Source of the DNA: Tepidiforma bonchosmolovskayae
GTDB taxonomy: Bacteria > Chloroflexota > Dehalococcoidia > Tepidiformales > Tepidiformaceae
Assembly (NCBI RefSeq): GCF_008838325.1
Contig: NZ_CP042829.1
Coordinates: forward strand, 744,001 to 808,000
DNA: 64,000 bases
Direction of reading: 5' to 3'
Positions 15,125 to 59,816 of the stretch are shown here, piece after piece. Each line of letters begins with the position of its first letter. Position 1 is the first letter of the stretch. The position numbers were made by a program, and so were the translations under genes. The notes beneath the pieces are model-generated. The model was not told the DNA's origin and did no database searches. It saw only the letters and a program-made list of their open reading frames with translations.

Positions 15125-15799
15125 TCAGCCCGCCGGCTCTGCGGCAGCCCGGGACGGAGGGCGGGCTGCCGGCTGGCGGCGCGGGCGGACGTAGGTAAGC
15201 CGCACGGCGAGGGCGCCGAGCAGCAGGGAGGAGGTGAGGATGTACAGCAGGGTGACCGGGAGGGTGCCGGTATCGGTGCCGATGCGGACGCCGTGCCAGA
15301 GCGCGGCGATGTACGCAACGAACGAGGCGCGGTGGACCCAGCGCCAGGTGGCCGGGCCGATGGCGCCGCGGAACCAGAAACTGAAGCTGACGATGGCGAA
15401 GAGGTAGAGCGCCAGCGTGCCCATGGCGGCATCGGCGGGCTGGTAGTAGGACGCGAACGGCACGAAGAGGTCGGCCAGGCCGAAGTGGGTCCAGCCATCG
15501 GGGATGAGAACGAGCGCGTGCCCGAGGCCGAGTGCGAGGCCGGCAAGGGCGAGCGACTGGTGGAGAGCGAGGAGGCGGGCGCGGTTGACGATGCCGTCGA
15601 ACCAGGCGGAGGACATGACCAGGCCGCCGGCGAGGGACAGCCAGAGGAAGCCGTAGGCCACGAGGCCGGCGGCGCGGGAGGCATACCAGGCGCCGTGGCC
15701 TTCGGCGGGCGGGATGAAGCGGGCGAACGGCGCGGAGAGCAGCAGCCCGGCGGCGAGCCCGGCGAGGGCGGAAGCGAGGATGATCCAGCGGAGCTGCAT
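15125..15799 (-). CDS. Ferric reductase-like transmembrane haem protein
   Basis: 224-residue membrane protein with about six helices, of the ferric-reductase-like domain family (also MsrQ/YedZ-like). Paired histidines in adjacent helices fit haem b ligation: His80 and His94, then His156 and His169. No FAD/NAD-binding domain is fused, so it needs an electron donor partner. The start follows the stop of the upstream small gene by three bases, so it is third in a unit headed by the Asp/His/Glu-tailed protein at 16334. With nearby apbE this suggests extracytoplasmic electron transfer or metal reduction. Confidence 0.8.
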   Translation of the reverse strand: MQLRWIILASALAGLAAGLLLSAPFARFIPPAEGHGAWYASRAAGLVAYGFLWLSLAGGLVMSSAWFDGIVNRARLLALHQSLALAGLALGLGHALVLIPDGWTHFGLADLFVPFASYYQPADAAMGTLALYLFAIVSFSFWFRGAIGPATWRWVHRASFVAYIAALWHGVRIGTDTGTLPVTLLYILTSSLLLGALAVRLTYVRPRRQPAARPPSRAAAEPAG

Positions 15800-15802
15800 G
15801 GT

Positions 15803-16066
15803 TTACGACCCCCGGGAGGCGCGCTGGCGTTGCGCGGGTTTGACAGCCCGGTTCGGCTGGAAGTACGAGGCATCGGGTGCGGAGGCACCAGCCAGCGGGC
15901 GGCTGTCGGCGAGGAGGGCCGAGCCCGGCCGGGGTGTGATGATGGCGGCATCGCCATCGCCGGCGGCCGCAATAGCGACCCAGGCGGCTGCTACGAGGGA
16001 AGCCGCGGCGGCAGCAACCGCGAGCCGGGTAGCTTCGTAGCGCGGCCTCGAAGGGCGCTTAGTCAT
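15803..16066 (-). CDS. Small single-pass membrane protein
   Basis: 87-residue protein I do not recognise. A basic N terminus (KRPSRPRYEATR) precedes one hydrophobic helix at about residues 15-36, then an extracytoplasmic tail of about 50 residues ending in basic residues. Start ATG 16066 overlaps the stop of the preceding gene by eight bases, and its stop is three bases before the ferric-reductase-like start. Tight coupling implies it works with that haem protein, perhaps as an anchor or partner. It lacks a convincing flavinylation motif. Confidence 0.7.
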   Translation of the reverse strand: MTKRPSRPRYEATRLAVAAAAASLVAAAWVAIAAAGDGDAAIITPRPGSALLADSRPLAGASAPDASYFQPNRAVKPAQRQRASRGS

Positions 16067-16334
16067 CGTCGTGCTCGTGCTCTTCGTGCTCGTGCTCTTC
16101 GTGCTCTTTGTCCTTCTTACGCTGCTTCGCGTATCCGCTGCGGTCGTCGTCGCCGCGGTAGACGGCGGGTTCAGCGGAAAGCGCGGAGGCGTCGGTGCTG
16201 CTGACGACGGCTTCGTGGTCGTCGCTGGAGCCGCCCACATCGATGATGCCCTGTGAGGCGGCAACGGTTCCGAGCACAGCAACCGAGAGGCCGGTAGTCA
16301 CTGCGGCGGTCACGATGGAAGCGATGCGATTCAC
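16059..16334 (-). CDS. Small exported protein with Asp/Glu/His-rich tail (paralogue 1)
   Basis: 91-residue protein. Residues 1-30 form a signal peptide or anchor (VNRIASIVTAAVTTGLSVAV) nearly identical to the start of the protein at 17688. The C terminus (about 70-91) is Lys/Glu/His/Asp-rich (KEHEEHEHEEHEHDDD), which could bind divalent metals. GTG 16334 has AGGAGA seven bases upstream. It heads the unit ending in the ferric-reductase-like gene and is preceded by the shared promoter-like motif. Function unknown; metal binding is inferred from composition only. Confidence 0.75.
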   Translation of the reverse strand: MNRIASIVTAAVTTGLSVAVLGTVAASQGIIDVGGSSDDHEAVVSSTDASALSAEPAVYRGDDDRSGYAKQRKKDKEHEEHEHEEHEHDDD

Positions 16335-16368
16335 TGCGGATTCTCCTGGCAGCAGGGTGGTTTCATCC

Positions 16369-16400
16369 GGTACATCGGGGGAGGTTCGCCAGGGGTGTCA
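16369..16400 (-). promoter_or_regulatory. Shared promoter-like motif, copy 1
   Basis: On the minus strand TGACAC (16395-16400) is followed after exactly 16 bases by CCGATGTACC (16369-16378), 35 bases before the GTG at 16334. An AT-rich block (about 16406-16431) lies just upstream of the -35-like box. The same arrangement precedes two paralogous genes at 17688 and 18274. It looks more like an alternative-sigma (ECF-type) promoter than a sigma-70 promoter. Confidence 0.55.
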
Positions 16401-16432
16401 CGACGTTTACGAATTTTCCAAAAACCTTTTCC

Positions 16433-17032
16433 CTAGGATCCTTTGGACTTCTTCGGAGCGGGGGTAGCGGCCGGCCTGGGCGGTGCGGCCGGCGCGGGCT
16501 GCACGGCAGCGGGCGGGGGCGGGGAAGCAGGCGCAGGAGCTGCTGGTGCCGCGGGCAGGACCGGGGCAGGCGGTGCCGCGGGAACCTCGGGAAGAGGGGC
16601 CGGGGCTTCGGCCTGCGCAGCAGGGACAGGCGTTTCGGGGCTGCCGGCCGGGGAGGGAGCCGCCGGCAGGCCGGGGACCGTGGGGGCGGGGGTACCGGCG
16701 GCTGGCGGTGCGGCAGCCGTACTGCCGGGACCGGCCTGCACCGGGACCTGGACGACGTAGTAGACCGGCTGGCGCTGGATGATGACGACCTGCTGAGGCG
16801 GCTGCGCGGCGGGAGCCGGGGCGGGCTGCGCCGGGCCGGCAGTCTCGGGGGCGGCGGACGCCGTCGCGGGGTCTCCTGCTTCGGCGGCGACGGCATCCGC
16901 CTGGACGGAAGAGACCTGGCGGTGTTCAGCAACGGCGATGGCGTTCCAGGTGCCGACCAGGGTGGCGGCAGCGGTGACCCCCACGGACAGACGGGTGAAG
17001 AGGTAACGGACCACTCCGGCTGACCTGCTCAT
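16433..17032 (-). CDS. Pro/Ala-rich single-pass exported protein
   Basis: 199-residue protein with no recognised domain. A helix at about residues 9-34 (LFTRLSVGVTAAATLVGTW) is followed by an acidic/neutral linker, a short beta-like stretch QVVIIQRQPVYYVVQVPVQ (about 81-99), then about 90 residues of Pro/Ala repeats and a basic KKSKGS end. The start overlaps the previous stop (TGATG) and has AGGAG upstream. It is the second gene of the middle unit. The VVIIQRQPVYYVVQ segment resembles PVVIYQDARPMVIYQQAQ in the upstream protein. Confidence 0.7.
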   Translation of the reverse strand: MSRSAGVVRYLFTRLSVGVTAAATLVGTWNAIAVAEHRQVSSVQADAVAAEAGDPATASAAPETAGPAQPAPAPAAQPPQQVVIIQRQPVYYVVQVPVQAGPGSTAAAPPAAGTPAPTVPGLPAAPSPAGSPETPVPAAQAEAPAPLPEVPAAPPAPVLPAAPAAPAPASPPPPAAVQPAPAAPPRPAATPAPKKSKGS

Positions 17033-17688
17033 CAGTGGCGCTCCTTGCTGTCGTCGTGCTTCTTGTCATCGGACTTCTTGTCCTTTGACTCCTTGCCGTC
17101 GCTGTGCTGGTCGCGGTCGTCGTCGTGGTCGCGGTCGTCGTCGTGGTCGCGGTCGTCCTCGTGGTCGCGGTCGTCCTCGTGGTCATCGTCGTGGTCGTCC
17201 CTGTACCCGGCCGTTCCGGCGGTGTCGGCGGCCGCCGGTGCGGGAGGCGGCGGAGCGGGGGCTGCGGCCGCGGGCGGGGCAGCCGGCGGCTGCGGCGTGG
17301 GCGGGGGAGCCGGGGCGGATGGCTTCGCGGCCGCTGAGGGCGTCGGCGACGGAGGCGCCGGCGGCTGGGCCGGTGCGGTAGCGGCCGGGGGCGGGGACGC
17401 CGGCGCGGGTGTGGTACCAGCCGCCGGGACCTGGGCCTGCTGGTAGATGACCATCGGGCGGGCGTCCTGGTAGATGACGACGGGGGTCGGTTCGGCCGCG
17501 GCCGCCGGGTCGGCAAGGGACGGGACCGGTGCGGCCGGCTGGACGTCGGAGACGTAGGCCGCGGGCTCTGCGGCCTGCTCATGGCTGCCGAAGGAGAGGA
17601 GCCCCTGGGAGCTGGCGGTGACGCCGACCGCGGCCGCGGAGAGGCCAGTGGTCACGGCGGCGGTCAGGAGGGATGCGAGTCGGTTCAT
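17032..17688 (-). CDS. Exported protein with Pro/Ala linker and Asp/Arg/His-rich tail (paralogue 2)
   Basis: 218-residue protein. The N terminus (MNRLASLLTAAVTTGLSAAA) matches those at 16334 and 18274. A segment PTPVVIYQDARPMVIYQQAQ (about residues 58-77) precedes a Pro/Ala linker. The last ~55 residues are DDRDHDDDRD-type repeats ending in Lys/Asp/Ser. Start ATG 17688 has a perfect GGAGGT. The frame is open far upstream (to 18168), but the ribosome site and promoter-like motif mark this start. It is translationally coupled to the Pro/Ala-rich gene. Function unknown; the tail could bind cations or a charged polymer. Confidence 0.72.
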   Translation of the reverse strand: MNRLASLLTAAVTTGLSAAAVGVTASSQGLLSFGSHEQAAEPAAYVSDVQPAAPVPSLADPAAAAEPTPVVIYQDARPMVIYQQAQVPAAGTTPAPASPPPAATAPAQPPAPPSPTPSAAAKPSAPAPPPTPQPPAAPPAAAAPAPPPPAPAAADTAGTAGYRDDHDDDHEDDRDHEDDRDHDDDRDHDDDRDQHSDGKESKDKKSDDKKHDDSKERH

Positions 17689-17717
17689 GCGTGCACCTCC
17701 ACGTGCGGTTTCCGCCG

Positions 17718-17749
17718 GGTACATCGGGAGGCGCGGCCGAAAGGTGTCA
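17718..17749 (-). promoter_or_regulatory. Shared promoter-like motif, copy 2
   Basis: TGACAC (17744-17749), 16 bases, CCGATGTACC (17718-17727) on the minus strand, 30 bases before the ATG at 17688. Both boxes and the spacing are identical to copy 1. Confidence 0.55.
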
Positions 17750-17825
17750 GACGGGCGAGGACGAAGGCGGAACCGGGGAGGGCGCCGGCGGCCGCTGGCC
17801 GGCCCGGCGCCCCCGCGGCGGTCTC

Positions 17826-18168
17826 TCAGCCAGTCGTCGCCGGAGTCGCCATCGCGGTCGCCGGAGTCATCGCGGTCGCCGGCGTCGTCGCGGTTGTCGG
17901 TGTCATCGCGGTTGTCGGTGTCATCGCGGTCGCGGGCGTAGTCGCGGTCGCGGGCGTAGTCGCGGTCGGAAGGGGCGGCGCCGGCAGGAGCGGGGCCATG
18001 GTCAGCGGCGGAGAGCACGGGAGCCGGGGCATCGGACGCAGCGGGTTCACCGACCTCCATGGCGACCAGGGCGGCCGGGAGAGCAGCGGCCTTGCCGGCC
18101 GGGTCGTCCCCGGCGTCCGGCGCAGGGGCCGGGGGGTGCGCTGACCGCGACGGCAGCGGCCTGGTCAT
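17826..18168 (-). other. Charged-repeat reading frame out of frame with its likely N terminus
   Basis: A minus-strand frame open from 18168 encodes Ala/Pro-rich sequence, then DRDYARDRDYARDRDDTDNR-type repeats (about 17830-17990), strongly like the charged tails of the neighbours and with C-ending codons throughout. It has no start of its own kind and is offset by one base from the gene starting at 18274. The offset could be repaired at a G6 run (18131-18136). A TGA at 17826-17828 lies in yet another frame; the charged frame itself stays open into the next gene. It may be a sequencing error, a real frameshift, or programmed frameshifting. Confidence 0.45.
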
Positions 18169-18274
18169 CGGCCGGAAGGCCGGGCCGGGGCTCGCCGACA
18201 GCGGCAGCGGCGAGGGCGGCGAGGGAGAACGCCGCGGTCGCGGATGCGGTGAGGATGGTAGCCAGGGTGTTCAC
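18047..18274 (-). CDS. Small exported protein, paralogue 3, apparent frameshift
   Basis: As read, 75 residues: a hydrophobic N terminus (VNTLATILTASATAAFSLAA) related to those at 17688 and 16334, then a short linker and an Arg/Gly-rich end that looks out of frame. GTG 18274 has GGAGGA eight bases upstream and the shared promoter-like motif. Removing one base at the G6 run 18131-18136 would join it to the Asp/Arg repeat frame, giving the same layout as its paralogues. It lies 89 bases after apbE on the same strand. Confidence 0.6.
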   Translation of the reverse strand: MNTLATILTASATAAFSLAALAAAAVGEPRPGLPADDQAAAVAVSAPPGPCAGRRGRPGRQGRCSPGRPGRHGGR

Positions 18275-18303
18275 AGGTCTTCCTCCGTGGCAGGTTGCCG
18301 ACC

Positions 18304-18335
18304 GGTACATCGGAGGAAGGGCGTGACATCGATCA
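18304..18335 (-). promoter_or_regulatory. Shared promoter-like motif, copy 3
   Basis: CCGATGTACC (18304-18313) is identical to copies 1 and 2. Sixteen bases upstream is TGATCG (18330-18335), matching only TGA of the -35-like box. An AT-rich stretch lies upstream. The boxes sit 30 bases before GTG 18274. Confidence 0.45.
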
Positions 18336-18363
18336 TTTTGTTCCCTGAACTTCGATTCCTGTT

Positions 18364-19242
18364 CTACGGAGCAGTCCAGGACGGCGTTGGTGAGGGGGAG
18401 CCGTCGGCGGCGAGGGCGAAGGCGGCGACGCCGCGCAGGGCGGCGAGTTCGAGGCCCTCGTGCCCGCCGATAAGGACGGCTTTGGCCCAGGTTTCGGCTT
18501 CGCGGCAGGTCGGGGCGATGACGGAGACCTGGACGAAGGGCGAGGCTGCCGGCAGGCCGGTGCGGGGGTCGATGAGGTGGTGGGCGGTGCGGCCGTCGGC
18601 GGTGGTCCAGCGGCGGCGGAGGGTCGTGGAGGTGGCGAGGGCGCCGGCAACGATGCCGGACCAGGCGGTTTCGCCGGAGGGGCCCTCGACGGTGAGCTCC
18701 CAGCCGCCGCGGCCGGGGGCTTCTTCGCCGATGCAGCGGATGTCTCCACCGGCATTCACCATCGCGGGCGCCTTCGTGGCAGCTGCCAGGTGCTCGGCGG
18801 CGAGGTCGGCGGTCCAGCCTTTGACGATGCCGCCGAGGTCGAGCCGGCCCTCGCAGAGGCGCCAGCCGGCGGTCGTCCGTTCGATGGCGGTGCGCGGGTC
18901 GGGTGGAGGGAGCGGGACCGGCGCGCCGCCGGAGACGGTGCTGAAGGTGCGGTCGTAGCCGGCGGCTGCGAGCGCCGGGAGGATCAGCGGATTGAAGAGG
19001 CCGTCGGTGGTCTCCCAGGCGGCGAGGGCGAGGGGGAGAATGGCGTCGAGCCAGGGATCGGCGACGGTTTCACCGCGGTTGAGGCGGGAGACGAGGGAGG
19101 ATGGACGGAAGCGGGAGAAGCGCTCCTCCTGCTGGTCGAAGAGGAGGCGGGCCTCGAGGAAGGGGAGCATGGGGCGCTCGTCGGCGATGACGATGAGGTC
19201 GATGCCGGTGTCCATGGCGCGAAAGGATTCGATGTGCTCCAC
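18364..19242 (-). CDS. apbE: FAD:protein FMN transferase (ApbE family)
   Basis: 292-residue enzyme that moves FMN from FAD to a Thr/Ser of extracytoplasmic target proteins. Family blocks: FRAMDTGIDLIV near the start, RFSRFRPSSLVSRLN (41-55), LDLGGIVKGW, APAMVNAGGDIRCIG, HHLIDPRTGLPA, and the late AETWAKAVLIGG in place of the usual ADALATA. Some conserved positions are thus altered. No signal peptide or lipobox is visible. The GTG start at 19242 is chosen because it keeps the FRAM motif. No FMN-binding-domain target was found in the window, so its substrate is unknown; the adjacent exported proteins and haem protein are candidate partners. Confidence 0.85.
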   Translation of the reverse strand: MEHIESFRAMDTGIDLIVIADERPMLPFLEARLLFDQQEERFSRFRPSSLVSRLNRGETVADPWLDAILPLALAAWETTDGLFNPLILPALAAAGYDRTFSTVSGGAPVPLPPPDPRTAIERTTAGWRLCEGRLDLGGIVKGWTADLAAEHLAAATKAPAMVNAGGDIRCIGEEAPGRGGWELTVEGPSGETAWSGIVAGALATSTTLRRRWTTADGRTAHHLIDPRTGLPAASPFVQVSVIAPTCREAETWAKAVLIGGHEGLELAALRGVAAFALAADGSPSPTPSWTAP

Positions 19243-33290: not shown

Positions 33291-34151
33291 TCAGTTGCGG
33301 GTGAGGCGGGAGAGGTCGGTCACAAAGAAGACGGTCGGGCCTTCTCGGACGGGCGAGCCGCCGGCGCGTTCGATGGTGACGACGGCGGTGTCGTAGCTGG
33401 TGATGCCCTCGGGGACGCGGGTTTCGTAGCGGGCGAAGCCGGCGTCGTCGGGGGCGAAGGTGCCGAGGGAGTAGTAGCGGCCGCCCGAGTTGACCCAGAG
33501 CTGGTAGGTTTCGCCGGGTGGGAGCTGGCGGAGCTGGCTGGCAACGAACCAGACGCGCTTCTGGTCTTCGTCCCAGACGAGGCGGCCGATGGAGCCGCGC
33601 TCAGGGGAGACGGAAACGACGGCGGCGACCTGGCTGTTGGGCGAAATCAGGGCGATGAAGAGCTCGGAGTCGGACTTGAGCGTTTCGCGGAGTTCGGCGG
33701 CGACGGCCTGCTGGTCTTCCAGCTTTTGGGTCAGGGCTGCGAGTGCGACCTTCTGGGAAAGGGCTTCATCGATCTGGCGCTGGAGGTCGGCATTCTGGGA
33801 GCGGAGGGCATTAACCTGGGTGCGGAGGCCGAGCATGCCGGAGAAGGCGCCGACGGCGATGATGATGGCGGCCAGCCCTGCGGCGGCGCGGCCGATGGTG
33901 AAGGCGCGCCAGGCGGGGCCGGGCTTGCGGATGCCGGCGGCGGCGAAGACCCGGCTGCGAAGGCGGGGCGAGGCCCGGCGGAGGGGCTGGCTGGCGGCGA
34001 GGAGGGCGGCGACGCGCTCGGCTTCGCGGACCATGTCGCGGCAGCGGGAGCATTCGGCGAGGTGGAGGGCGATGGCGCGGGCAAGCTCGGGTTCGAGCGA
34101 ACCGATGGCGTACTCGTCAGCCTGTTCCTGGGTGATGTGCGGGGCGTCCAT
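33291..34151 (-). CDS. Anti-sigma factor (RskA/ZAS type)
   Basis: 286-residue single-pass membrane protein. The cytoplasmic N terminus has a zinc anti-sigma motif, His30-xxx-Cys34-xx-Cys37. A helix at about 88-106 is followed by a coiled coil and the extracytoplasmic RskA domain (GETYQLWVNSGGRYYSLGTF). It would sequester the sigma factor encoded 12 bases upstream and release it on proteolysis. No ribosome site is visible, so coupling to the sigma gene is likely. Confidence 0.9.
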   Translation of the reverse strand: MDAPHITQEQADEYAIGSLEPELARAIALHLAECSRCRDMVREAERVAALLAASQPLRRASPRLRSRVFAAAGIRKPGPAWRAFTIGRAAAGLAAIIIAVGAFSGMLGLRTQVNALRSQNADLQRQIDEALSQKVALAALTQKLEDQQAVAAELRETLKSDSELFIALISPNSQVAAVVSVSPERGSIGRLVWDEDQKRVWFVASQLRQLPPGETYQLWVNSGGRYYSLGTFAPDDAGFARYETRVPEGITSYDTAVVTIERAGGSPVREGPTVFFVTDLSRLTRN

Positions 34152-34163
34152 GGCGGTTGCGGG

Positions 34164-34823
34164 CTACCGGCCGCGTTCGAGGCAGCGGCGGAGCTTCTGC
34201 ATGCCGAGGCGGATTCGGGTCTTGATGGTGCCGAGGGGCTCGCGGAGGACGGCGGCGATCTCCTGCTGGGTGAGGCCGCCGAAGTAGGCGAGTTCGAGGG
34301 CGCGGCGCTGCTCGGGCGGGAGCTCGTTGAGGGCGCGGCGGACGGCGAGGCGTTCTTCGTTCAGCTCGGCGGTAGCGCCCGGGTCGAGCGCAGCGGCGTG
34401 GAAGACGGGTTCGGCCGACTCGGCGGGGTCGCCGAGGGGGCCGCCCTCGCGCTTCCAGCGGCGGCCGCGGGCGCGGACTTCGTCGAGGGCGCGGTTGCGG
34501 GTGACGCTCATGAGCCAGCTGATGAAGCGGCCGCGTTCGGCGATGAAGGTTTCGGGGCGGCGCCAGAGGCGGACGAAGACGTCCTGGGTCGTGTCCTCGG
34601 CGAGGCCGGGGTCGCCGAGGATGCGGTAGGCGGCAGAGTAGACGAGGTCGACGTAGCGGTCGTAGAGGACGGCGAAGGCGTGCTGGTCGCGTTCGAGGAT
34701 GGCGAGCATGAGGGTTTCGTCCGGCCAATCGGTGCGGTCGGCGAGCGCTGCGTCGGCAGGGCGCGCGAATTCGACCGTTCGATCGAGGTTACGTATACCG
34801 GCGGGCGTCGGATTGCCGTCCAT
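34164..34823 (-). CDS. ECF RNA polymerase sigma factor (SigK-like)
   Basis: 219-residue ECF sigma factor. Region 2 spans AFAVLYDRYVDLVYSAAYRILGD through FISWLMSVTRNRALDEVRAR (about 50-120), and region 4 ELPPEQRRALELAYFGGLTQQEIAAVLREPLGTIKTRIRLG (about 165-206). It is followed by its RskA-type anti-sigma gene. ATG 34823 has no clear ribosome site at ideal spacing. Its target promoters are unknown. It is divergent from an HtrA-like protease that could process the anti-sigma factor. Confidence 0.92.
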   Translation of the reverse strand: MDGNPTPAGIRNLDRTVEFARPADAALADRTDWPDETLMLAILERDQHAFAVLYDRYVDLVYSAAYRILGDPGLAEDTTQDVFVRLWRRPETFIAERGRFISWLMSVTRNRALDEVRARGRRWKREGGPLGDPAESAEPVFHAAALDPGATAELNEERLAVRRALNELPPEQRRALELAYFGGLTQQEIAAVLREPLGTIKTRIRLGMQKLRRCLERGR

Positions 34824-34973
34824 CGCGCGGGGTGGTCCCTTCGGCAGGGGATGATACACCGCGGCGTGATGGGCGCGAACGGCTTTACCGGTAGCGTGAA
34901 GGCGGCTTTCATCTTTACCTTTTGCACGGCGAGCGGCTGTGAGACTGGGAGGAGAACCTGAGGGGTGCGAGAG

Positions 34974-36083
34974 ATGAACACCAGGATGGTGCTGGCGGCG
35001 GGGCTTGCGGCGCTGGCGCTGGCCGGCGGGGCAGCCTGCTCCGATACCCACGAGGCGAACCCGGCGGCGCCGGCCGGGAACGCAGCGGCTGCGGCCACGC
35101 CGACGGCAGGGCGGTCGCAGCCGACGTCGCTGCCAGCGGGGCAGATGACCGTGGCGGAGGTGGTGCAGTTCGCCGAGCCGGCGATCGTGCGGATTCAGAC
35201 CAACGCGGGCGTGGGCTCGGGGTTCGTCGTGGCGAGCGACGGCTACATCGTGACGAATGCGCACGTGGTGACCGGGACGACGGGGCGGGTAGCGAGCGCG
35301 ATTACGGTGACCCTGAGCGATGGTTCGCAGTACCAGGCGCGGGTGGTGGGCGTGGACCCGCGGGCGGACATCGCGCTGCTGAAGATTGAGGCGACGGGGC
35401 TGAAGGCGCTGGAGTTCGCCAGCCTGAAGGACGTGGCGGTGGGGCAGGATGTGGTGGCGATGGGGTACGCGCTCGACCTGCAGGGCGGCGAAGGCGGCGC
35501 ATTCAGCGTGACGAAGGGGATCATCAGCCAGAAGAACAGGGTCATCAACGAGGGGTCGAACGCGGCGATCTTCGGTTCGGTGCAGACGGACGCGGCGATC
35601 AACCACGGGAACAGCGGCGGACCTTTGCTCGACCTGACGGGGAAGGTGGTGGGCGTGAACACTGCGCTGGCGCCGGACCCGACGACGGGCGAGGCGGCGC
35701 CGGGCATCGGCTTTGCGGTCGGCTCGGACATCGTGAAGGCGATCATTGAGCAGCTGAAGGCGCAGGGCCGGGTGAACCGCGGCTTCCTCGGCATCCAGGG
35801 GTTCGAAGCGCTGCGGCCGGCGGTCGCGCGGCAGCTGGGGATCCCGGAGAGGGAGGGCGGAGTGGTCATCCAGACGGTCCTGGCTGGCGGGCCGGTGGCG
35901 CAGGCCGGGCTCCAGGCAAAGGACGTCATTGTGAAGATCGGCGACGTGGAGATTGACAACGAGGCAGACCTGGCGGTGGCGCTCATCAAGTACCAGGCCG
36001 GCCAGAAGGTGAAGGTGGAGTTTTACCGCAACGGGAAGCGGCAGAGCGCGGAGGTGACGCTCGGCTCGCCGCCGTCGAACTGA
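34974..36083 (+). CDS. HtrA/DegP-like serine protease, lipoprotein-type
   Basis: 369-residue exported protease. A signal region ends in GGAACSD (Cys22, imperfect lipobox). The chymotrypsin-like domain has His97 (TNAHVV), Asp132 (DPRADIALLK) and Ser214 (HGNSGGPL). A C-terminal PDZ domain (RGFLGIQGF to the end) follows. It acts in the periplasm-like space on misfolded or signalling substrates. ATG 34974 has GAGGGG eight bases upstream; GTG 34965 is an alternative. It is next to sigma/anti-sigma genes, consistent with envelope stress. Confidence 0.93.
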   Translation: MNTRMVLAAGLAALALAGGAACSDTHEANPAAPAGNAAAAATPTAGRSQPTSLPAGQMTVAEVVQFAEPAIVRIQTNAGVGSGFVVASDGYIVTNAHVVTGTTGRVASAITVTLSDGSQYQARVVGVDPRADIALLKIEATGLKALEFASLKDVAVGQDVVAMGYALDLQGGEGGAFSVTKGIISQKNRVINEGSNAAIFGSVQTDAAINHGNSGGPLLDLTGKVVGVNTALAPDPTTGEAAPGIGFAVGSDIVKAIIEQLKAQGRVNRGFLGIQGFEALRPAVARQLGIPEREGGVVIQTVLAGGPVAQAGLQAKDVIVKIGDVEIDNEADLAVALIKYQAGQKVKVEFYRNGKRQSAEVTLGSPPSN

Positions 36084-58627: not shown

Positions 58628-59203
58628 TCAGTCGGCGAAGAGGGCGGCGAGGGGGAGTTCGAAGCCGGGGACGGGGAAGGCGGCGTCGTCGCTCGCGAGG
58701 GTGTCGCGCTCGGTGTAGGTGTGGGCATCGCCGCCGGGCCGGTGGACCGTGATGGTGCGGTTGCGCGGCCGGACGATCCAGACGCGGCTGGCGCCGGCAT
58801 CGAGGTAAGCCTGGATCTTGCGGGCGACGTCGGCTTCGCGGTCTTCGGGCGACATGATTTCGATCGCGAGGGTCGGGGCGCCGTCGACGTAGCGGTCGGA
58901 GGGCGGGCCCTGGATGCGGTCGGCGGCCCGGAAGGCGAGGTCTGGCGCGAGCACCGTGTCGGGATTGCGGGCAACGCGGTAACCGGTTTCGAGATCGAGC
59001 CTGCCGAGGTGGTGGCGCTTGACGAACGAACCGAGCGCGAGCGCGAGCTCCGCAGCGATGGCGCCGTGGCGTTCTCCGACGGGCATGTGCTCGATGACCC
59101 TCCCTTCGACCAGTTCGAGCCGGCCGCCGTGGGGCGGGTCAGGAAGCTGCCAGAATTCGTCGGCCGTGAGCAGGGCCGGCACCGGGCCGGGCTGGGCGCT
59201 CAT
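58628..59203 (-). CDS. Uma2 family (DUF820) PD-(D/E)XK nuclease-like protein, copy 1
   Basis: 191-residue restriction-nuclease-fold protein. TADEFWQLPDPPHGGRLELVEGRVIEHMP, APDLAF (catalytic Asp region) and IEIMSPEDREADVARKIQAYLDAGASRVWIV (ExxK-like) are the DUF820 hallmarks. Start ATG 59203. It lies in tandem with copy 2, starts 613 bases apart. The two proteins have the same length and near-identical ends, but their middles differ (about residues 43-105). The biological role of Uma2 proteins is unsettled; they are abundant in Chloroflexota and cyanobacteria. Confidence 0.88.
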   Translation of the reverse strand: MSAQPGPVPALLTADEFWQLPDPPHGGRLELVEGRVIEHMPVGERHGAIAAELALALGSFVKRHHLGRLDLETGYRVARNPDTVLAPDLAFRAADRIQGPPSDRYVDGAPTLAIEIMSPEDREADVARKIQAYLDAGASRVWIVRPRNRTITVHRPGGDAHTYTERDTLASDDAAFPVPGFELPLAALFAD

Positions 59204-59240
59204 GCCGCCATGATACCAGCGGGCGCAAAGGCCGGGCCGG

Positions 59241-59816
59241 TCAGTCGGCGAAGAGGGCGGCGAGGGGGAGTTCGAAGCCGGGGACGGCAAAGGCGGCGTC
59301 GTCGCTCACGAGGTTGTCGCGCTCGGTGTACGTGTGGGCATCGCCGCCGGGCCGGTGGACCGTGATGGTGCGGTTGCGCGGCCGGACGATCCAGACGCGG
59401 CTGGCGCCGGCATCGAGGTAGGCCTGGATTTTGCGGGCGACGTCGGCTTCGCGGTCTTCGGGCGACATGATTTCGATCGCGAGGGTCGGGGCACCTTCGA
59501 CGTAGCGGTCCTGGGCTGCTTCGTGCAGGCGGTCGCGGTCGAGGAAGGCGACATCGGGGGCGACGACGGTGTCGGGGTCGCGGGCGAGGCGATACCCGAC
59601 CTCGGTGTGCACCTCGCCGAGTCCGTTCCGGGAGACGAGGGAATGGAGTTCCGCGACGATGCGGGCGGCGATCCTCCCGTGGCGGCGCCCGACGGGCATG
59701 TGCTCGATGACCCTCCCTTCGACCAGTTCGAGCCGGCCGCCGTGGGGCGGGTCAGGAAGCTGCCAGAATTCGTCGGCCGTGAGCAGGGCCGGCACCGGGC
59801 CGGGCTGGGCGCTCAT
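59241..59816 (-). CDS. Uma2 family (DUF820) PD-(D/E)XK nuclease-like protein, copy 2
   Basis: 191 residues, tandem paralogue of copy 1. Residues 1-42 and the last ~80 are near identical to copy 1; the middle differs (RIAARIVAELHSLVSRNGLG in place of AIAAELALALGSFVKRHHLG). APDVAF and IEIMSPEDREADVARKIQAY are kept, so both could be active. Its upstream flank continues into the acyl-CoA dehydrogenase stop. Confidence 0.88.
   Translation of the reverse strand: MSAQPGPVPALLTADEFWQLPDPPHGGRLELVEGRVIEHMPVGRRHGRIAARIVAELHSLVSRNGLGEVHTEVGYRLARDPDTVVAPDVAFLDRDRLHEAAQDRYVEGAPTLAIEIMSPEDREADVARKIQAYLDAGASRVWIVRPRNRTITVHRPGGDAHTYTERDNLVSDDAAFAVPGFELPLAALFAD

Follow-up and report, generated by a model that had tools for sequence, protein, structure and literature searches.

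The closest described relatives of the system reported here are the MsrQ-like (PF01794) flavinylation clusters (Meheust et al. 2021, PMC8238504), in which a ferric-reductase-like protein (FR) with six transmembrane helices and two haems is encoded with apbE, and electrons pass from the membrane to the outside. These clusters typically include a gene for a flavin mononucleotide (FMN)-binding domain, and their FR often carries a nicotinamide adenine dinucleotide (NAD)-binding domain. We analyzed a locus that shares FR and apbE, and probably the direction of transfer, at positions 15125 to 19242 of a 64,000-nucleotide stretch (the window) of the Tepidiforma bonchosmolovskayae genome (RefSeq assembly GCF_008838325.1, contig NZ_CP042829.1, positions 744,001 to 808,000), which is complete at 2.75 Mb. 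The locus has neither the FMN-binding-domain gene nor the NAD-binding domain, and in place of the former it encodes tailed proteins without a recognizable domain, which we call B. This second paralogous family (B1 and B2) was missed in the preliminary description of the window, which centered on a first family of charged exported proteins, here called A. We conclude that this flavin/haem system is real and phylum-wide, a variant of ApbE-based electron transfer with a key component that had been overlooked.

ApbE modifies the last residue of the motif D-x-x-[ST]-G-A-[ST] (PMC12052999), and its published substrates are FMN_bind, NqrB/RnfD, DUF2271, DUF3570, Flavodoxin_4, and FMN_red (PMC8238504, PMC11334425). 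Judging from sequence, the present locus probably encodes an envelope system for flavin/haem electron transfer, in which FMN on the tail of B would accept electrons from FR; that ApbE would flavinylate B is a strong prediction. We also favor, with somewhat less confidence, a broader proposal: B would be a natural ApbE substrate lacking a flavin-binding fold, its disordered, tethered arm recognized through [ST]-[KR]-[GAS]-S and bearing FMN on the terminal Ser. Throughout Chloroflexota, MsrQ-like haem proteins would then rely on B as their standard flavin carrier, and most orphan ApbEs of that phylum would be accounted for. The gene order on the minus strand is apbE, A1 (frame-broken), A2, B1, A3, B2, FR1, and the features that carry the argument are:

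18364..19242, minus strand: apbE, FAD (flavin adenine dinucleotide):protein FMN transferase without signal peptide (Pfam ApbE, 4.9e-44)
16433..17032, minus strand: B1, with a basic N-terminus, one transmembrane helix, and a Pro/Ala-rich arm
16436..16453, minus strand: C-terminal hexapeptide KKSKGS of B1, proposed ApbE site at its last Ser (class-wide motif)
15803..16066, minus strand: B2, B-family protein ending in RASRGS
15806..15823, minus strand: C-terminal hexapeptide RASRGS of B2, proposed ApbE site (class-wide motif)
15125..15799, minus strand: FR1, six-helix ferric-reductase/MsrQ-like protein with invariant His80, His94, His156, and His169 and no NAD/FAD domain

B proteins consist of a basic N-terminus, one transmembrane helix, an arm rich in Pro, Ala, Ser, and Thr, and a conserved C-terminal hexapeptide. 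The small membrane protein described earlier in the last unit is present but not unique, being a paralogue of the second open reading frame of unit 2. Across 100 loci the arm has a median length of 68 residues (range 26-356), and the charge of the flanks (+3.2 on the N-terminal and -0.7 on the C-terminal side) is predicted to place it outside in 94. B matched no Pfam or NCBIfam family at any family cut-off, and NCBIfam searches of A, B, and FR returned only chance-level matches far below the cut-offs. A C-terminal sorting signal of the sortase or PEP-CTERM type was rejected for B because its sole transmembrane segment lies near the N-terminus and its C-terminal stretch is rich in Pro, Ala, Ser, and Thr, with no hydrophobic helix.

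The tail is the most telling part of B. Among 66 distinct B proteins from the host's class, 65 end in [ST]-x-[GASQVM]-S-COOH, with Ser as the last residue in 65, Ser or Thr fourth from last in 65, and Lys or Arg third from last in 61. Shuffling the last 50 residues (2000 shuffles) gave a mean of 1.1 matches and a maximum of 6. The background was 5 of 736 other genes in the loci, and two of these five were a B gene missed by the filter (L156) and an FR that carries the tail (L157). In the phylum outside the class, a looser form was found in 27 of 34 B proteins (1.7 expected). Tails in the phylum include [ST]x[GAS]S, [ST][KRQ]SSR, SRSTR, NSKGSK, TRQSGG, and TTQSG(K/R)xxP; one B protein (L140) ends in DGSTNGS, which retains the Asp of the ApbE motif. 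Relative to homologues, the codons of the B1 tail differ only by synonymous changes or Lys/Arg exchange, which argues that the peptide is under selection. Neither the B tail nor the A N-terminus arose by chance, as members of the host's family repeatedly show both in the same gene order. A rigid DNA pattern of the tail found no match in the host genome, and it also missed the known B genes because of codon choice. Since the [ST], small, and acceptor Ser positions of B tails are in register with the [ST]-G-A-[ST] of ApbE substrates, the C-terminal tail of B is likely the ApbE target.

Gene arrangement ties B to FR. The start of B1 overlaps the stop of A2 (TGATGA), the start of B2 overlaps the stop of A3, and FR1 begins 3 nt after the B2 stop, so each A-B(-FR) unit looks co-translated. 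In comparison with Tepidiforma flava YIM 72310 (G001), the ratio of nonsynonymous to synonymous substitution rates (dN/dS) was 0.21 for A2, 0.28 for B1, 0.30 for FR, and 0.34 for apbE. The preliminary description had allowed that the frames might be non-coding; purifying selection on A2 and B1 indicates that both are coding. Its reading of the last gene as a haem-binding, ferric-reductase-like protein was upheld by four family-invariant His and a Pfam Ferric_reduct match below the cut-off (22.6 versus 28 bits). FR1 also gave a profile match to PDB 8qt6 (E 2.9e-6), and its model, predicted from two sequences, has six helices at low confidence (predicted local distance difference test score of 52).

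FR proteins fall into three subtypes, which share no conserved stretch usable as a genome query: FR1 is that of the present locus, FR2 loci also hold B genes, A-like genes, and a divergent two-component system, and FR3 forms a B-FR pair without A that is found twice in the host genome. The constant partner of FR is B, not A. Arrangements of the form apbE-A-B-FR, with variations, were found in many genera of the host's family, where B lies immediately upstream of nearly every FR with readable upstream sequence. The order in the host's class is B-apbE-FR or B-FR, and a B-type gene almost always lies immediately upstream of apbE at apbE-FR loci of the phylum. One FR (L157, 1457-2368) is a natural FR-B fusion, with a seventh transmembrane helix and the B-type tail SRTSRGS.

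We next placed ApbE in this context. The apbE motifs DLGGIVKG, NAGGD, and HHLIDPRTG are intact, and DLGGI-KG, AGGD, and HH-IDP align with PDB 1vrm (other PDB relatives are 4xdt and 6nxi). The host genome encodes one ApbE, three FR, and four B proteins. The absence of a canonical FMN-binding-domain target, noted earlier for the locus, extends to the whole genome; a Pfam search found no FMN_bind domain, ruling out such a target elsewhere in the host. In a census of 400 Chloroflexota genomes with completeness of at least 85%, FR was present in 204, ApbE in 246, and both in 200. Thus ApbE accompanied FR in 200 of 204 genomes, and FMN_bind was absent from 146 of those 200; our local FMN_bind profile was built from four sequences, and absence beside FR rests mainly on reading of the B gene and Pfam searches. 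Conversely, FR was present in 146 of the 156 genomes with ApbE but no FMN_bind. Within the host's family, 22 genomes had completeness of 90% or more and contamination of 5% or less; 14 of them had both ApbE and FR, and the remaining 8 had neither.

The tail type of B follows the ApbE clade. Six FMN_bind-associated ApbEs formed one branch apart from 71 of the FR/B type (100/100), a few of which are not beside a B gene. Tails extended past the motif occurred at 17 of 18 loci in one ApbE clade and at 0 of 42 elsewhere, and the only class member with an extended-type tail (L145, RTRSSQ) has an ApbE of the matching clade. Arg at the Gly position was also seen in a true FMN_bind protein of the host's family (L027), whose flavinylation site reads TRAT; the corresponding residues in its relatives are SGAT, SGAS, or SGST. 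These results support the flavin/haem electron-transfer module suggested in the preliminary description and make apbE functionally part of it. Judged by the rule set there, that homologues should not occur outside this gene neighborhood, the module is not a single rigid neighborhood, since apbE is sometimes unlinked (L060, L062). The B-FR pair and the genome-level co-occurrence of ApbE and FR held.

The tight B-FR gene pair and the FR-B fusion could also be read as signs that B is a subunit of FR with an assembly or docking role, its basic tail attaching to FR, to haem propionates, to lipid, or to the acidic tails of A, and that ApbE acts on another, unlinked protein. The opposite charges of B and A tails would fit such a role. 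We consider this explanation unlikely, because basic tails also occur at FR3 loci that have no A gene, and tails with neither Lys nor Arg exist (STNGS, NTGVS). Moreover, Ser/Thr is conserved at its positions no less than the basic residues are at theirs, and no residue is more constant than the terminal Ser. Docking also leaves unexplained that tail type follows ApbE clade and that ApbE and FR co-occur almost perfectly in genomes where FMN_bind is often absent.

If B is the ApbE substrate, electrons would enter FR from the membrane, with quinol the probable donor because FR has no NAD domain, and would cross the two b-haems expected in FR. ApbE would attach FMN to the B tail, most likely at the last Ser of [ST]-[KR]-[GAS]-S, and the FR haems would pass electrons to this FMN at the tip of the arm. 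B would thereby act as a membrane anchor with a disordered Pro/Ala/Ser/Thr arm, whose swinging would bring the flavin to FR and to wall-space acceptors in turn. In the monoderm Tepidiforma, the periplasm beneath the S-layer measures about 40 nm (PMC10284905), and a long flexible arm makes sense in such a space. The A proteins probably hold the acceptor, for which a metal ion is the simplest guess. Given that ApbE has no signal peptide and the B arm is predicted to lie outside, flavinylation probably precedes export, which is the weakest step of the scheme. We infer the direction of electron flow, the acceptor, flavinylation, and the action of ApbE before B export from sequence.

Several observations weigh against flavinylation of B. 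With no transmembrane or lipobox signal in 77 of 78 ApbEs, the enzyme seems to be cytosolic, whereas the tail is predicted to lie outside. The Gly of the ApbE motif is replaced by Lys or Arg in 61 of 66 tails, and the Asp is usually absent; in published experiments, changing the Asp to Ala had a minor effect, and replacing Gly or Ala roughly halved labeling (PMC12052999). Tails outside the host's class are looser, and B is rich in Ser and Thr, making another modification or a docking role possible. Not every locus conforms: apbE is not beside B/FR in some genomes (L060, L062), and neither ApbE nor B was found at four FR loci of the phylum (L201, L210, L211, L216). Finally, the tail and co-occurrence statistics were not corrected for phylogeny.

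The A proteins, which the preliminary description had placed at the core of the system as charged "bristles", proved optional, as they are absent from the FR3 loci of the same genome, where B and FR remain. The three copies in the window are:

17800..18274, minus strand: A1, decayed A-family copy (three-frame translation; T. flava L014 has an intact first A copy)
17032..17688, minus strand: A2, one transmembrane helix, Pro/Ala linker, and Asp/His/Arg/Lys tail
16059..16334, minus strand: A3, one transmembrane helix and Glu/His/Asp tail

Members of this family start with MNR(L/I)AS...TTGLS...ASQG and continue through a linker to an acidic/His tail. Three paralogous N-termini had been described at 18274, 17688, and 16334, and all were found, although unit 1 is not intact. 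Its A-type N-terminus stops at 18047, the Asp/Arg-repeat tail lies in another frame that continues into A2 without a stop, and the break falls within the low-complexity Asp/Arg repeat region. Identities in the first 30 residues numbered 11 (A1-A2), 19 (A2-A3), and 11 (A1-A3). The Pro/Ala linkers were borne out, as were the Asp/Glu/His/Arg-rich tails of A2 and A3. The acidic/His stretch varies in position among loci: it may form a separate A protein, lie within B, end the FR sequence, or follow a weakly PepSY-like domain; acidic/His-tail partners with this domain were seen in other Chloroflexota classes (L203, L212, L218, L235). In another Tepidiforma genome (G004), which has apbE but no FR1, a short open reading frame in the A position (L058, 7743-8042) carries a Cys-containing CAVPVPTHPR-type repeat.

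Recurrence of Asp/Glu/His tails that can move between A, B, and FR speaks for the metal-capture surface first proposed, in which A and B bristles would sequester Fe, Cu, or Zn, FR would be a ferric reductase, and ApbE would be incidental. FR2 loci with a two-component system beside an acidic/His protein, and VIT1 iron transporters in MsrQ-like clusters elsewhere (PMC8238504), point the same way. However, B arms are mostly uncharged except for their last six residues, which are basic, and the acidic protein is missing at FR3 loci that retain B and FR. We regard this explanation as very improbable, and the acidic A proteins as an optional, possibly metal-binding accessory of the proposed B-based system. 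Least probable of all is that ApbE modifies FR itself (or A), with B serving as a spacer or anchor: FR accompanies B everywhere and has a conserved G[TS]D[TS] after its last haem His, but the invariant columns of FR contain no ApbE-type [ST]-x-x-[ST] motif, and A is absent from FR3 loci.

Promoter-like elements precede the A genes:

18305..18312, minus strand: CGATGTAC element upstream of A1
17719..17749, minus strand: promoter-like TGACACC-N16-CGATGTAC upstream of A2 (conserved before Tepidiforma A genes)
16370..16400, minus strand: promoter-like TGACACC-N16-CGATGTAC upstream of A3

CGATGTAC lies before every A gene; TGACACC stands 16 nt ahead of it in units 2 and 3, and the combined element is weaker in unit 1. 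Other Tepidiforma share the element, and several further genera have a variant (GCGACTCTTTTCG ... GCGATGTGC). In several genera the cassette has extracytoplasmic function (ECF) sigma genes as neighbors, which makes an ECF-type regulon for the A genes plausible. The window also encodes an ECF sigma factor, a putative anti-sigma factor, and an HtrA-like protease at 33291-36083. This block adjoins apbE in sister genera (e.g., L060, L062, L066, L068), implying that the arrangement was rearranged in Tepidiforma. Separately, a tandem duplication at 58628-59816 consists of two neighboring open reading frames that begin almost identically (MSAQPGPVPALLTADEFWQLPDPPHGG...).

Should ApbE indeed flavinylate B, much of the orphan-ApbE gap would close for an entire phylum. 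Among surveyed genomes with extracytosolic flavinylation parts, about 4% (670) encode an ApbE without a known substrate (PMC8238504). A survey that required a predicted signal or lipidation site in each gene would miss the ApbEs described here because they have no signal peptide. Flavinylation would then need no flavin-binding domain, and a short natural flavin tag with cognate ApbEs from thermophiles is predicted. The swinging-arm principle is known for lipoyl domains, and it would be extended to extracellular flavin electron transfer. The literature we searched contained no report of a domain-less ApbE substrate or of the present Chloroflexota arrangement.

In comparison with known systems, FR shares the ferric reductase fold and paired haem His of MsrPQ and the NOX family (PDB 8qt6), but it lacks the FAD/NAD domain, and no MsrP partner was read beside it. 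Like B, known ApbE substrates present Ser or Thr in an [ST]-x-x-[ST] context beside apbE. In FMN_red of L. lactis, the flavinylation sites lie on an unstructured C-terminal extension. However, a folded domain or transmembrane protein holds the flavin in known substrates, whereas B offers only a transmembrane helix and a disordered arm. That a short terminal peptide is enough for FMN attachment, as proposed for B, was established with an engineered flavin-tag, for which the seven-residue motif is sufficient and works best at protein ends (PMC12052999). The flavin-tag is a laboratory construct, whereas B would be its natural counterpart, with Lys or Arg at the Gly position.

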